Assembly: GCF_949774925.1 (NCBI RefSeq)
Contig: NZ_OX458932.1
Span: forward strand, 2,232,001-2,296,000
Source: Candidatus Methylacidiphilum fumarolicum
GTDB taxonomy: Bacteria; Verrucomicrobiota; Verrucomicrobiia; Methylacidiphilales; Methylacidiphilaceae
Length of the DNA: 64,000 bases
Direction: 5' to 3'
Both the position numbers and the translations under genes were made by a program. The notes beneath the pieces are model-generated. The model ran no database searches. It was given only the letters and a program-made list of their open reading frames with translations, and was not told where the DNA came from. Below, piece by piece: positions 9,862 to 18,353 of the stretch (positions are counted from its first letter, which is position 1; every line of letters begins with the position of its first letter).

Positions 9862-10060
9862 AAATAGAAAAACCACCTAATCAACCATTTAGGATCTCAA
9901 GAATTTGAAAAAAATAGAAGACCCCCGAAAGTCTTTTTCTAAATACCGAATAGTATGCTCTTTTGAAGTCTATCGTCTGATAGAGTTATAGCCTTTGAGA
10001 TAGATCGGCTTTACGAAAAATAGCCCATATACCACTAGATAAAATACATAATGATAGATG

Positions 10061-10250
10061 TGACACTCTCAACCCGCTGAAGCGGGTGAGCTTCTAGCTA
10101 GTACGCACGGCTTGTGGGCGGTTCCCGTGGGGAACCCGCTGACGAATCATAGCCGTTTGAGGCCGTACTTCAGCTAGACAACGTTGGCCTGTTGTCCAGG
10201 CTACACCTGCTTCCAGGCTGCCGGTTATTCATCCTGGCGGCCCGCCCTTG
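10061..10250 (-). ncRNA. Candidate omega-RNA / right end of the IS605-type element
   Basis: In IS605 elements the 3' end of tnpB and the right end encode the omega-RNA that guides TnpB. Here, reading the minus strand, the tnpB remnant is followed by a perfect six-base-pair hairpin (ACCCGC / GCGGGT, loop of four, plus-strand 10072-10087). Then comes a tail ending in GTCAC near 10061. The hairpin plus GTCAC end resembles the orphan copy at 15.65 kb. With tnpB inactivated, any RNA made here would be a relic unless another TnpB uses it. The left boundary of the RNA is a guess. Confidence 0.45.
10072..10087. repeat. Perfect hairpin at the right end of the IS605-type element
   Basis: ACCCGC and GCGGGT pair perfectly around a TGAA loop. 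Such subterminal hairpins are the recognition sites for the Y1 transposase of IS200/IS605 elements and also form the last stem of omega-RNA. It sits about 10 bases inside the likely element end. Confidence 0.7.
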
Positions 10251-11390
10251 CAGAGGGTCTGGTCGCAGATAGGTGAAGCGCATTGGAAATGGCATCACCT
10301 GACCGAAGGCCAGCGGGTGCCTGTTGACGCCGCCGACCACATCCCGGTGGCCCTAAAAGCCACATTTAGACCATCGCCAGTTCCGCCCATTGGGCTTATG
10401 GCGATGGCCGCATTCCGGACACCGGCTGGAGGTGTCCCGTTCCTCCCCGGTGAAGCACGCAATGCGGATTTGCTCTACTTCTGCTTCAAATAGTCCAAAT
10501 CCTTACCATATTCCCACTGGCTCATCCGCTGGTTGGGACGGCGTCTACAGGCGCCGCAACGTACTCCATCCGGGTTACCAGCGAAGATGGATTGAATTCC
10601 ATGATACAGGTAAAAGTCTATGATCTTCCGGATACCTTTATGATGCAGGTCGCAAATCCGGCGTTTATGACGCAGCGTGCGCTTCGCTCTGGCTCGTCCG
10701 AGCTTGCGCATTCGCCGGCTGCCCTTCCTGCATCGGAAGCGCTTTTTTTGGATTTCTCCGAGTTGCTTACTGCGTAGCCGTTTGATGGTTCGCAAGACTT
10801 TCCCGGAAACGACTAGAGTGTTCCCATTGTTGGAGACAATGATGGCCTGGTGAATTTGGCCGGAAATCCACCGTGGCACACTGTTCCGTGGGCTCTTGCA
10901 AGTTCGGATCAGCTGCCGATTCGACCAAGGTTATGTGCCATTCGTTGGGCAGGTCATTCCAGAGGATCAGGCAAGCGGATTTATGCAAAAGCCAAGCGGG
11001 ACGCGGCAATATCAGAAACGATCCTCCTCGTCCCATAGGGAGAACGATCCGCTTTTCCTTTATTCCCATTGGTTAGGCCGGCCAACATGAGAGGGGAAAA
11101 GCGCTTGTCCTTATATGGATAATAGATAGTCCTGCGGCCATCGCTGCGGTTCCTGCGAACTGCTTCCACGGCTGCGTCGAAGGCGCGAAAGATCTGTTGG
11201 ACCCTTTGGGCATGCAAGGCGTAACACCTCGGGCGGTGGCTTTGTGATATTTATCGCGTCTGGGCCATGGCGCATTCGTCTTGCGAGCCTTGAAATGCAC
11301 GTTCCGACACGTCTCCCAGACCTTGACCGCATCCAACTTGCCTTGCTGAATGATGGGGAGCCTCTCTTTTGGAGATACACTTCAGGGATA
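10170..11390 (-). pseudogene. tnpB: TnpB (IS605 OrfB) RNA-guided nuclease, disrupted
   Basis: TnpB is the RNA-guided RuvC-type nuclease of IS605 elements and the ancestor of Cas12. Fragments in all three minus-strand frames line up in the correct order. They are an N-terminal part (KLDAVKVWETCRNVHF, near 11.3 kb), a middle part (YYPYKDKRFSPL, near 11.1 kb), the first RuvC motif (ATVD, near 10.9 kb), a central helical part with KGSRRMRKLGRARAKR, NQRMSQWEYGK, a zinc ribbon with CPECGHRHKPNGR, and the final RuvC motif GHRDVVGGVN. Frameshifts separate these pieces. The zinc ribbon runs into an in-frame TAG exactly where relatives have the FEGH glutamate. It therefore cannot make a full nuclease. 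The end is taken at the TGA at 10170-10172 and the beginning is approximate. Confidence 0.85.
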
Positions 11391-11427
11391 GGAGGCGGAT
11401 CCGTTCTATAGGTGTTATCTTCGCGCT

Positions 11428-11840
11428 ATGACTGATCCATTGCAAACCGGAAAAACGCAATGGGTGCATTATCAGCTCGCCTATCACTTTGTATGGATAC
11501 CAAAATACCGTCGCAGAATTCTATTCGGTGAAATGGAGGCGGCCTGCAAGGCTCTGCTCGCCGAATGCTGCCGGCAACACGGCTTTCGGCTGCCAGTTTT
11601 GAGAACGGACATCGACCAGGGGCATTGCTTCGTATCGGCCCCGCCTCGTTGAGCGACTTCATCGATCGTGGGATTCCTTAAGAGTTACATGTTCCGTGGG
11701 GCTCTCAGGAGAGCATCCCGAAGCTCAAGACCCTCCGTAGCCGGGAAAATCTATGGACGCAAGCCTATTATGTGGGAGCGGCTAGGGCAGTATCGGTAGA
11801 AGTCATTCGTCGTTACATCGCGGCATGCCAAGGCAAATAA
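11428..11840 (+). pseudogene. tnpA: TnpA, Y1 transposase of IS200/IS605, disrupted
   Basis: The first 74 codons match the IS200/IS605 Y1 transposase closely (YHFVWIPKYRRRIL, then CFVSAPPR), but a TGA at 11650-11652 ends the frame. Downstream the homology continues in another frame to a TAA at 11838-11840, with NLWTQAYYVGAARAVS and VIRRYIAACQGK. This segment still contains the aromatic YY where the catalytic Tyr of the family lies. The HUH metal-binding motif, normally DHVHLFVS, reads DQGHCFVS, so the first His is lost. The enzyme is inactive on two counts. It starts about 40 bases from the tnpB remnant and is transcribed away from it, the classic IS605 order. Confidence 0.88.
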
Positions 11841-14230: not shown

Positions 14231-15211
14231 ATGAAAAATCAAGGATCTGCTTTACCAATAGAAAATGCAATCGAAAAGGCGATAGAACTGTTGCGGAAAG
14301 GAGAAGTTGTTGCTATCCCTACTGAAACGGTCTACGGCCTGGCTGCAGATGCACTCAATTCCGAAGCTGTAGCCCGACTGTTTGAACTTAAAAAAAGGCC
14401 TAAAATAGATCCGGTCATTGTCCACTGTTATGGTGCAAGCCATGTTTTTGCCTTTGTTCGGAACCTTCCAGAACCAGCTAGGTTACTCGCTACTACGTAT
14501 TGGCCAGGTCCCCTTACTTTGGTTTTAGAAAAAAAAGATTCGATTCCTGACATTGTTTCGGCTGGGCTTCCTTTTGCTGGATTTAGGGTACCCAAACATC
14601 CTCTAACCCTAAAACTAATCGAAAAACTTGGTAGACCACTGGCAGCGCCTAGTGCAAACAGATTTGGGAAAATTAGTCCTACGACTGCACAAGCAGTCTT
14701 CGAAGAATTCAACCATCTGATTCCTTTAATTCTTGACGGGGGGCCATGTCCAGTGGGTATTGAATCGACAGTCATTTCGTTTGCTCATGACCCTCCTTTG
14801 TTGCTCCGATACGGTGCCATTACTAAAGAGGAAATAGAAAAGAGAATAGGTCCATTGACCGTCCCTGCTCCCAATACAGCATGGAACTTAGCACCTGGCC
14901 GATTCCCTAAACACTATGCTCCCTCAGTCCCAGTGGAAATTATTTCCTCCCTCTCAGAGATTCCCTATTGGAAAAGAAAAAACGCTGGCCTGATTTTCTG
15001 GGGAAGAGAGGAAACGTCAGGATTCAAAGTTGTCAAAAATCTTTCCAAAGAAAAATCACTAATCGAAGCAGCCGCAAATTTTTTTCAAATGCTTCGAGAA
15101 TTGGACAAAAGCAGTATAGAAAAAATCTATGCGTTACTCCTGCCAGAGGAAGGTCTAGGAAAAGCCATTAATGAAAGAATCAAAAAAGCGGCTGGCTCCT
15201 CCTCGCCATAG
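14231..15211 (+). CDS. tsaC: L-threonylcarbamoyladenylate synthase (two-domain Sua5/YwlC type)
   Basis: The enzyme makes threonylcarbamoyl-AMP from threonine, bicarbonate and ATP, the first step of the t6A37 tRNA modification. The 326 residues include a YrdC domain (about 10-210) with IPTETVYGLAADA, KKRPKIDPVIVH, APSANRFGKISPT and GIESTV. A linker with APGRFPKHYAP follows, then the C-terminal Sua5 domain. The linker is characteristic of the two-domain Sua5/YwlC branch rather than single-domain E. coli TsaC. It is divergent from fmt and monocistronic. Downstream lie the omega-RNA-like repeats. Confidence 0.92.
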   Translation: MKNQGSALPIENAIEKAIELLRKGEVVAIPTETVYGLAADALNSEAVARLFELKKRPKIDPVIVHCYGASHVFAFVRNLPEPARLLATTYWPGPLTLVLEKKDSIPDIVSAGLPFAGFRVPKHPLTLKLIEKLGRPLAAPSANRFGKISPTTAQAVFEEFNHLIPLILDGGPCPVGIESTVISFAHDPPLLLRYGAITKEEIEKRIGPLTVPAPNTAWNLAPGRFPKHYAPSVPVEIISSLSEIPYWKRKNAGLIFWGREETSGFKVVKNLSKEKSLIEAAANFFQMLRELDKSSIEKIYALLLPEEGLGKAINERIKKAAGSSSP

Positions 15212-15381
15212 AGAGTTAAAGAACAGCTACTAAGACCCTCATTGCAGCTTGTTGCCTACTCTTCTCCATATATTTGCATCTTTCTTCTCTGGCAGAATGA
15301 ACAACATCAAAGCAGTGGCCAAGTCCTTGGTGGTATGGCCATGGGAATATAAAGAAATGCCACTTGGAAGCCTGAAGGATT

Positions 15382-15493
15382 TGGTTGTGTGTTCTACAGT
15401 CTTGAGCCTATGGAGAGGAAAAGGCTCAGAGCTTGGGAGAACATTTACGAGTGAACGCCGGGAAAGCCCATACTTTTAAGAGTGGCGAGAAGA
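15382..15493 (+). repeat. Omega-RNA/right-end-like sequence, diverged copy A
   Basis: This segment parallels copy B in order: a GGTTGTGTG start, a GCCTATGGAGAGGA block, and an end reading GGAAAGCCCATACTTTTAAG then AGTGGCGAGAAG. The same landmarks are recognisable in copy B. It is more decayed, with a weaker terminal hairpin, and is shorter in the middle. No tnpB precedes it; a frame at 15298-15479 overlaps it but has no recognisable motif. Confidence 0.4.
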
Positions 15494-15522
15494 GGCGGCT
15501 TCATTAAGTTACAAATTTCTAA

Positions 15523-15683
15523 TGGTTGTGTTATAACACCTGGCCGTAGGGCTGGACCGGTCCGAACTAATGCCTCTGGAGAAGGAGACCGCTGCACGGA
15601 TACTGGGGGGTAACCCTGCTATTCGTGTAAGTTTCCTTCGGTGAAAGAGGAAGCCCACTCTTTTAAAGGTGGGAGGAGGTCAC
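15523..15683 (+). ncRNA. Orphan omega-RNA / IS605 right-end-like sequence, copy B
   Basis: The segment has the look of the 3' end of a tnpB transcript: CCGGTCCGAACTAATGCCTC, TGGAGAAGGAGACC, CACGGATACTGGGGGG, GTGTAAGTTTCCTTCGGTGA, and the terminal hairpin CCCAC(T)CTTT / AAAGGTGGG followed by GGAGGTCAC. The hairpin plus GTCAC end is shared with the IS605-type element at 10 kb. It is far more GC-balanced than the flanks. No complete tnpB lies upstream, so it is either a relic of a deleted element or a solo RNA that another TnpB could use. The identification rests on pattern memory and not on a covariance search. Confidence 0.45.
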
Positions 15684-15746
15684 GCTGAAACTATTCTTGA
15701 TCTTTGTGTGGGAAGGAGAAAGTCTAAAGGAAGTGTATCAAAACAA

Positions 15747-18353
15747 TTAAGGAAGCAAAGGCTCTTCACCTTCCTCCTTTTCAGGAACTACTCGAGCAAT
15801 CGAGGTGACTTTATCATCGCTATCCAATTGAACAAGCCGTACCCCTTGGGTATTTCTACCTGTCTTTCGGAGATCTTTTACTTTAATTCTGATAACATTG
15901 CCTTTGAGAGTCAATAGCATCAGCTCATCTTCTTCAAAAACAGTCCTGGCCGATACCACCTTGCCTGTCTTCTCAGTGGTTTTCATTGTCTTTATTCCAT
16001 AGCCTCCCCTCTTCTGTCGACGGTATTCTTCAAAAGAAGTTCTTTTCCCTATCCCCTTTTCTCCTACAACAAGTAACGTCGCTCTCTCATCTACCACAGC
16101 CGCTCCAACCACTTCATCCCCTTCTCGAAGATTAATTCCTATGACTCCCGCAGCATTTCTACCCATGGAACGAACAAGGGTTTCTGAAAATCTTATGCTT
16201 TGCCCCTCTTTGGTAATTAAAACAATCTCCTTTTGCCCATCGGTAAACATGCAATCGATGAGTTTATCATTCTCATCAATACTAATTGCTGTAATGCCCC
16301 CTTTTCGGATATTTTGAAAATCGGTAACAGGGGTCTTTTTTACGCGTCCTTTTTTGGTACAGAAAAAAATATAATCGTTTTTGTCCCATGAGCTCTCTCT
16401 TGAGTCTGAAACTTCGGAATTGGCAACAATTCGCAACATCGAAGCGATCTCCTCGGTAGGTTTTAACTCAAGGAAATTGACTATGTTTTTGCCCTTGCTC
16501 GCTCTTTCTTTTTCTGGAAGCTCATAGACTCTCTGAATGTAAACCCTGCCATCGGTGGTGAAAAAGAGCAAATAATCATGAGTGGAAGCATTGATCAGGT
16601 TTTCGACAAAATCTTGTTCCTCTTCTTTGCCAACCTCCTGAGTCGCCATTCCCACTACCCCTCTTCCCCCTCTTCTTTGGGACCTGTAATTATCAAGATT
16701 GGTTCTTTTAATAAAACCATTATGCGTCAGAGTGATGACAACCCGCTGGTTAGCCACTAAGTCTTCGAAACTAACTTCCCCTGCCTCTTGGAGAATCTTC
16801 GTCTTTCTAGGATTGCCATACTTCTCTTTGACTTCCAAAAGCTCTTGCTTTACAATCGCCCAAATTTTCTCTTCGCTTCCCAAAATCGCTTTAAATTGCT
16901 CAATTTTTTCAAGCAATTCAGCATATTCAGAGGCTATTTTCCCCCTTTCGAGCCCAGTGAGTTGATAAAGACGCAAATCCAGTATGGCTTCCACCTGTCT
17001 TAGGCTGAGGCTATAGACTCCTTCCTCTGTTATTCTATCCTGGGCAATGACTATGCCAAGCGTTTCAAGCAAACGGACTGGAAATTTTAACTCTAAAAGC
17101 TTTTTTCGAGCTTCTTCTCGATTCGTTGATTCTCTTATTAATCGAATAAAATCTTCAAGCTGGCTTAAGGCAATCAAAAAGCCTTCAAGAATTTCTGCTC
17201 GCTCCAGGGCCTTGTTTAAATCAAATCGGGTTCTTCTGACTACGACCTCATGCCTATGATCTAAGTAACAAAAAAGAAGTTCTTTTAAATTGAGTGATTT
17301 AGGACGCAATCGATCAATTGCGACCATATTCACAGCAAAAGTGGTCTGTAGGGGCGTGTGTTTGTAGAGATTATTAATGACAACCTTTGGTATGGCATCC
17401 CTTTTGAGTTCTATCACTACCCGAGTATTCTCGTCGGATTCATCCCGTATATCCGCAATTTCTGGAATAATCTTTTGGTTGACAAGTTCTCCAATTTTTT
17501 CAACCAAAGCAGCTCTGTTGACATTATAAGGAATTTCGTCGATAATAATTGCCGACTTGCCCCCTCTTAACTCCTCAAAATGCACCTCCCCTCTTACTTT
17601 CAGACTACCTCTCCCAGTAGTAAAATAACTGACAATGCCTTCCTTCCCCAAGATAACTCCACCAGTAGGAAAATCCGGGCCTTGGATGTATTGGAGAAGA
17701 TCTTCAGCAGAAAGACCTGGTTGATCAATCAACGCAACCAATGCATCAATAGTCTCAGAAAGATTATGGGGAGGAATATTGGTAGCCATTCCCACAGCAA
17801 TTCCCGTTCCTCCATTAACAATTAAATTAGGGAAGGCAGCCGGGAAAACCGCTGGCTCCATCTTCGTTTCATCGTAATTGGGAACAAAATCAACCGTGTC
17901 CTTCTCCATATCCGCCATGAGCAAAGCTCCAGCTGGAGAAAGTCGGGCTTCAGTATACCGCATGGCTGCCGGTGGATCGCCTTCAATGGAACCAAAATTG
18001 CCTTGCCCATCGATGAGCACTTCCCGCATTGCCCATGGTTGAGCCATATGAACAAGTGTTGGATAGATAGCTTGATCACCATGAGGATGAAAATTCCCCA
18101 TTGTTTCTCCAACAATTTTTGCACATTTCAAATGCTTGCGATTAGGGGCTAGCCCAAGCTCGTGCATAGCAAAAAGAATTCTTCTCTGGGAAGGTTTTAA
18201 TCCATCTCTTACATCCGGTAAGGCTCTTGAAATAATCACCGACATCGCATAGTCTAAAAAACAACTCTTCATCTCCTCGGATACATCTACCATCCGAACA
18301 GGAGCGTTATCTCTGATTGATAGTTGCTCGTTGTTTTCAGAATTCTGCGCCAT
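15747..18353 (-). CDS. gyrA: DNA gyrase subunit A
   Basis: GyrA is the DNA-cutting and wrapping subunit of gyrase (A2B2), which introduces negative supercoils. From the ATG at 18353 it has 868 residues. The catalytic Tyr is Tyr133 in AAMRYTEARLS. The C-terminal beta-pinwheel contains QRRGGRG, the GyrA box, which separates it from ParC. In the quinolone-resistance region the sequence is HPHGDQAIYPTLV, so Gln94 and Pro98 occupy the places of E. coli Ser83 and Asp87. The open frame also has a GTG three codons upstream at 18362; I prefer the ATG. It follows gyrB with a gap of under 40 nt, so both subunits are probably cotranscribed. The tail is acidic (EKEEGEEPLLP). Confidence 0.97.
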   Translation of the reverse strand: MAQNSENNEQLSIRDNAPVRMVDVSEEMKSCFLDYAMSVIISRALPDVRDGLKPSQRRILFAMHELGLAPNRKHLKCAKIVGETMGNFHPHGDQAIYPTLVHMAQPWAMREVLIDGQGNFGSIEGDPPAAMRYTEARLSPAGALLMADMEKDTVDFVPNYDETKMEPAVFPAAFPNLIVNGGTGIAVGMATNIPPHNLSETIDALVALIDQPGLSAEDLLQYIQGPDFPTGGVILGKEGIVSYFTTGRGSLKVRGEVHFEELRGGKSAIIIDEIPYNVNRAALVEKIGELVNQKIIPEIADIRDESDENTRVVIELKRDAIPKVVINNLYKHTPLQTTFAVNMVAIDRLRPKSLNLKELLFCYLDHRHEVVVRRTRFDLNKALERAEILEGFLIALSQLEDFIRLIRESTNREEARKKLLELKFPVRLLETLGIVIAQDRITEEGVYSLSLRQVEAILDLRLYQLTGLERGKIASEYAELLEKIEQFKAILGSEEKIWAIVKQELLEVKEKYGNPRKTKILQEAGEVSFEDLVANQRVVITLTHNGFIKRTNLDNYRSQRRGGRGVVGMATQEVGKEEEQDFVENLINASTHDYLLFFTTDGRVYIQRVYELPEKERASKGKNIVNFLELKPTEEIASMLRIVANSEVSDSRESSWDKNDYIFFCTKKGRVKKTPVTDFQNIRKGGITAISIDENDKLIDCMFTDGQKEIVLITKEGQSIRFSETLVRSMGRNAAGVIGINLREGDEVVGAAVVDERATLLVVGEKGIGKRTSFEEYRRQKRGGYGIKTMKTTEKTGKVVSARTVFEEDELMLLTLKGNVIRIKVKDLRKTGRNTQGVRLVQLDSDDKVTSIARVVPEKEEGEEPLLP

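Follow-up and report, generated by a model that had tools for sequence, protein, structure and literature searches.

The segment 15449–15683 of the window—the 64,000-nucleotide stretch of Candidatus Methylacidiphilum fumarolicum DNA that we analysed—is very probably one 235-bp non-autonomous IS200/IS605 element, namely a PATE that originated by core deletion, that carries an orphan guide-RNA scaffold, and that is most likely immobile. The element is a further case of an already known type, though a well resolved one, and lies in a host genome made up of a single 2.48-Mb contig, between the convergent genes tsaC (plus strand, ending at 15211) and gyrA (minus strand, with the stop at 15747).

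Boundaries, target and empty sites

With 15300–15760 as the query, a search of the whole genome yielded a unit matching 15444–15683 at seven places (88–95% identity over some 240 bases), along with two further loci that matched the left or the right part only. The repeat unit measures 240 bp and consists of the TTTAC target plus the element of 235 bp (233–236 bp in the other copies), whose boundaries the alignment of the copies places between TTTAC and GAGTGAACGCC on the left and between GGAGGAGGTCAC and a variable flank on the right. TTTAC precedes six of the seven copies—the copy L007 having AATAC—as well as two decayed full-length elements of the same genome; and either TTTAC or TTAC is likewise found before the left end in the Thermus phage phiLo and in the relatives L102, L103, L106, and L111. 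The features, all on the plus strand, are as follows:

15444–15448 (+): target, or transposon-adjacent motif, TTTAC; host DNA immediately 5' of the element
15449–15683 (+): whole non-autonomous IS200/IS605 element (PATE), 235 bp; seven copies with the same boundaries at 88–95%, and empty sites
15449–15538 (+): left end (LE) inherited from the parent IS605 element, as far as the fusion; aligned with the two decayed full-length elements
15467–15485 (+): left-end subterminal hairpin CCCATACTTTTAAGAGTGG; likeness to the right-end hairpin
15509–15537 (+): promoter-like TTACAA-N17-TATAAC, from in front of tnpA; spacing, and TATAA(C/T) in all seven copies
15545–15683 (+): omega-RNA-type scaffold, formed by the former tnpB 3' end plus the right end; covariation over 19 right ends
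15549–15563 (+): scaffold helix 1; 98% of cells paired, three of six pairs with both-sided changes
15573–15650 (+): long interrupted scaffold hairpin (helices 2–5); covariation analysis
15654–15673 (+): terminal right-end hairpin CCCACTCTTTTAAAGGTGGG; four of six pairs with both-sided changes
15679–15683 (+): right-end terminus GTCAC, the 3' end of element and scaffold; in all seven copies and both parents
15684–15703 (+): would-be guide GCTGAAACTATTCTTGATCT, in the intergenic host DNA that follows the right end and precedes the gyrA stop

When the flanks of the window copy were joined and searched against the genus, the junction was spanned in two congeners, G004 (93%, over all 440 bases) and G003 (90%), and the joined flanks of the copies L002, L003, L004, L005, and L007 were matched across their junctions in congeners in the same manner. 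Viewed base by base, the empty sites of these six copies contained small indels near the junction at L002 (compared with G003) and at L003, and no target duplication; insertion after TTTAC without duplication of the target is thus a direct observation. In the four other genomes of the genus, the search found no copies of the element. The 235 bp are too few to encode a transposase, contain neither tnpA nor a complete tnpB, have palindromes near both termini (15467–15485 and 15654–15673), and end in GAGTG and GTCAC, which sequences are not inverted repeats of each other.

A sequence-only reading of this region had proposed two tandem, diverged omega-RNA-like right ends, designated copies A and B, on the basis of a shared order of landmarks. 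The landmarks are indeed present, and on inspection their order is shared; copy B (GCCTCTGGAGA ... GAGGAAGCCCACTCTTTTAAAGGTGGGAGGAGGTCAC), moreover, is an authentic IS605-type right end, has a terminal hairpin ending in GTCAC, and has no tnpB attached, as had been stated. The genomic repeat unit, however, spans both supposed copies, which fall within a single element having one left and one right end. The copy-A landmarks GAAAGCCCA, CTTTTAA, the TGG-rich strand, and GAGAAG constitute the left-end hairpin of that same element, whose likeness to the right-end hairpin was equalled in none of 1000 shuffles; IS605 elements commonly show such a resemblance between their left- and right-end hairpins. 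The opening stretch of copy A (GGTTGTGT, GCCTATGGAGA; 15382–15443), in turn, lies outside the element, is present as host DNA in two element-free congeners, and resembles the element at the level of chance, since 127 of 1000 shuffles reach the same similarity. Because the stretch 15374–15448 is nearly unchanged in G004, which lacks the element, that stretch does not belong to a right end. The empty sites together with the shuffle test rule out a tandem duplication, to which we accordingly concede practically no probability.

The location between convergent genes, along with the strong hairpins, might suggest that the host had adopted the sequence as a regulatory RNA or as a terminator for tsaC and gyrA. 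The same site is nevertheless empty in two congeners, only one terminator-like site was present, which number is within the range of chance, and the other copies also appear to be intergenic, as selection against gene disruption would by itself lead one to expect. We therefore regard host adoption as very improbable. A search against Rfam, in which families are listed only if curated, returned no family at the gathering score in the window.

Origin from full-length elements

Two loci of the genome retain the organization of the parent. At 1490560–1491641 a left end is followed by remnants of tnpA and tnpB, in that order, and then by a right end; the same arrangement recurs at 873165–869375 (locus L066, minus strand), where tnpA is interrupted by a different IS605-type element. 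This interrupting element belongs to another family and has long open frames. The proteins of the parent elements matched Y1_Tnp (PF01797), Cas12f1-like_TNB (PF07282), and OrfB_IS605 (PF01385), so that the ends of the small element are homologous to those of an IS605-type element by way of these two decayed examples.

The small element combines the left end of the parents (about 90 bp) with a right-hand part of about 140 bp made up of the final 20 or so tnpB codons and the right end, from which junction we deduce a deletion of the core: the loss of tnpA and of most of tnpB would have fused the left end to the tail of tnpB. The cognate TnpA, a Y1 transposase, would, while still intact, have acted in trans, excising the shortened element and inserting it as single-stranded DNA 3' of TTTAC, an enzyme and a route that we infer from what is typical of the family. 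The cognate tnpA copies that we found are all interrupted or partly deleted.

The genome harbors other IS605-type elements. One decayed element occupies 10060–11700 of the window on the minus strand, its right end terminating in GTGTCAC at 10060; its relatives are L009, L010, L027, and L033, with L009 having a long open tnpB frame. The sequence-only reading had noted a GTCAC end in common with this 10-kb element: the five letters are there, but the right ends are otherwise unmatched in both DNA and covariance searches, so that GTCAC was discarded as a sign of common family membership, being a family-level end only. About 14 near-identical copies (L011–L024) represent a different IS605-type element whose right end terminates in GATGGAGTAGTTCAT and in which the tnpB of several copies has the same in-frame TAG. 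Two weak covariance matches, at genome positions 714576 and 1708664 (E 0.12 and 0.55), were not counted as copies and look like the ends of other decayed IS605-type remnants terminating in GGAGGTCAA.

The right end as a guide-RNA scaffold

To the seven PATE copies and the two broken parents we added ten relatives, thus obtaining a right-end alignment of 19 rows; eight of those relatives have a long intact tnpB frame, while the tnpB genes of L108 and L110 are truncated or frame-shifted. RNAalifold predicted 39 pairs on these right ends, 15 of them with compensatory, both-sided changes, versus 4–6 in the slid controls; 95.4% of the cells were paired, against 39–53% when the partners were slid; and 44 cells contained both-sided changes, compared with 16 in shuffles and with 6–14 when the partners were slid by one to three columns. 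The scaffold region is partly protein-coding in the relatives, so that some of the constraint is codon-driven, though a constraint of that sort does not predict paired changes. The covariation that establishes this structure comes mostly from the relatives and less from the seven copies themselves, and as such does not demonstrate that the scaffold was under selection once the core had been lost.

All 19 right ends terminate in TCAC. By homology to the intact relatives, the scaffold overlaps the 3' end of tnpB and ends at the right end; its secondary structure is conserved; and the flank directly 3' of GTCAC, where a guide would lie, is different at every copy. These features are those of an omega-RNA, and the retained right end would accordingly encode a structured TnpB guide-RNA scaffold to which the flanking host DNA supplies the guide, a function that we attribute to it from its structure and kinship. 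In the window copy the scaffold helices are intact. Six copies differ from the scaffold consensus at 0–6 positions. In L007 the number is 18, and its changes, several of them compensatory, form a cluster (consensus positions 138–185; L007:1640–1690) that resembles the tail of a different tnpB, with the left end and the terminal hairpin of this copy hardly departing from the consensus; this pattern suggests a conversion from the tnpB 3' end of a lost relative.

Related right ends were found in the Thermus phage phiLo, in a plasmid of Thermovirga lienii, and in several GTDB genomes, where the relatives share 49–78% of their protein residues with the TnpB of Thermovirga. As a protein query, a piece of the broken tnpB gave no match in the genome contigs or the viral contigs; the intact Thermovirga TnpB did retrieve relatives. 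The sequence-only reading was to be abandoned if no covariance match and no similar sequence beside a tnpB turned up in related genomes: similar right ends do adjoin tnpB in other genomes, so that the reading is not overturned on this ground. Intact TnpB frames accompanied by a right end of this type occur in the Thermus phage, the Thermovirga plasmid, Coprothermobacter, and other genomes. The elements of phiLo (AYJ74005.1), of T. lienii pTLIE01 (AER67614.1), and of Coprothermobacter resemble the present one in scaffold structure, in a homologous tnpB tail, in a left end preceded, wherever this could be seen, by TTTAC or TTAC, and in a TCAC right end; they differ from it in possessing an intact tnpB frame and, in some, a tnpA. 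The TnpB of phiLo (L101:1828–3140) is flanked by a left end that TTTAC precedes and by a right end that closes with GTCAC; no neighboring tnpA is annotated. In the TnpBs of L100–L107, an invariant Gln (Q298 in phiLo) aligns with the RuvC-II catalytic Glu of the solved TnpBs, and an invariant Asp (D300 in phiLo) follows two residues later, which substitution may denote either a clade with a rearranged RuvC-II or a loss of cutting.

Expression, cognate proteins and fate of the copies

The promoter-like TTACAA-N17-TATAAC stands directly before the scaffold—TTGCAA in most copies and TATAAT in two—and the corresponding region precedes tnpA in both the parents and the relatives. A consensus scan did not list this sequence, which is a weak match. 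The start of transcription is predicted near 15544, where the structured RNA begins, so that the fusion would let the left-end promoter drive the scaffold directly, and a short guide RNA could be made from it.

This arrangement invites the proposal of an active trans-acting guide RNA, that is, a mobile cassette of promoter and omega-RNA served by a TnpB from elsewhere, with the excised sites being cut and refilled by recombination. Consistent with that proposal are the promoter-like sequence with its predicted start, the intact helices of the window copy, and the circumstance that each empty site would consist of TTTAC plus the copy's own guide; in six copies, furthermore, the scaffold has somewhat fewer changes per site than the rest of the element (16 of 636 versus 34 of 768 site-copies), a difference that is borderline by a hand estimate uncorrected for shared changes. 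Nevertheless, what the Pfam model and the protein searches retrieved from the genome as cognates of TnpB was confined to the two broken genes and the tails of the PATEs, none of them intact; and every sampled TnpB of the family has Gln in place of the usual RuvC-II Glu, which residue makes even its cutting uncertain. For the guide of the window copy, the one guide that was searched, no further match turned up in the genome when as many as three mismatches were allowed over TTAC and the following 16 bases. We consider an active trans-acting guide quite unlikely, and a relic far more likely.

Since no intact cognate TnpB was found, we classify the sequence as an omega-RNA-type scaffold instead of a working guide RNA; and since the cognate genes for both proteins are dead, the most likely status of the seven copies is that of orphan relics no longer able to move, though transcription may persist. 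The suggestion that a solo omega-RNA at this place might be either a relic or a guide thus stands in its first part, the relic being probable, but is at present unsupported as regards a TnpB elsewhere in this genome, where the cognates are pseudogenes. The copies diverge by 1–8% from their own consensus, which low divergence means that mobility may have been recent and that other strains may harbor a source that is still active. With somewhat less reluctance, though still as an unlikely history, we can envisage that the core deletion had created a self-contained mobile guide-RNA gene that exploited both TnpA and TnpB in trans, that RNA-guided re-insertion would have benefited this non-coding element, and that the seven copies, the one in the window among them, would be guides of this kind, by now either orphaned or relying on a TnpB present in other strains.

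The anatomy of the element accords with PATEs as defined in the literature, among which are cases that retain the tnpB 3' end (PMC3119063, PMC7290912). The PATEs of Haloquadratum walsbyi, in particular HqIRS71 (PMC3119063), share with the present element the lack of terminal inverted repeats, of target duplication, and of a transposase gene, as well as the near-terminal palindromes and the origin by core deletion from an IS605-type element; ours, by contrast, is bacterial, differs in sequence, has a scaffold whose pairing is backed by covariation, and carries a promoter-like sequence before that scaffold. The anatomy of the PATE-like sequence of Halanaerobium hydrogeniformans (PMC7290912) is nearly the same as that described here, with a left-end hairpin, the last 58 nt of tnpB, and a right end of 160 nt, and no tnpA; that sequence, however, is present in a single copy versus seven here, and its left end is shorter (28 nt), so that the tnpA promoter region was probably not retained. 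As in the TnpB omega-RNAs (Nety et al., 2023; PMC10278001), the right end is the 3' end of the scaffold and the guide lies outside the transposon; those RNAs are processed from the tnpB mRNA, whereas the present scaffold is detached from tnpB. A literature search, mostly outside the subscription journals, found no paper treating PATEs as carriers of TnpB guide RNAs, and we make no claim of priority. A 2023 study of the part that TnpB plays in the selfish propagation of IS605 elements may mention PATEs.

The observation is now resolved to an element with boundaries, a target, a source, and empty sites. As found, that element is an ordinary remnant of a genomic parasite beside tsaC and gyrA; at the same time it offers a clear example from nature of an omega-RNA scaffold that has become separated from its nuclease and, if transcribed, would provide a direct test of whether non-coding PATEs can use TnpB in trans.
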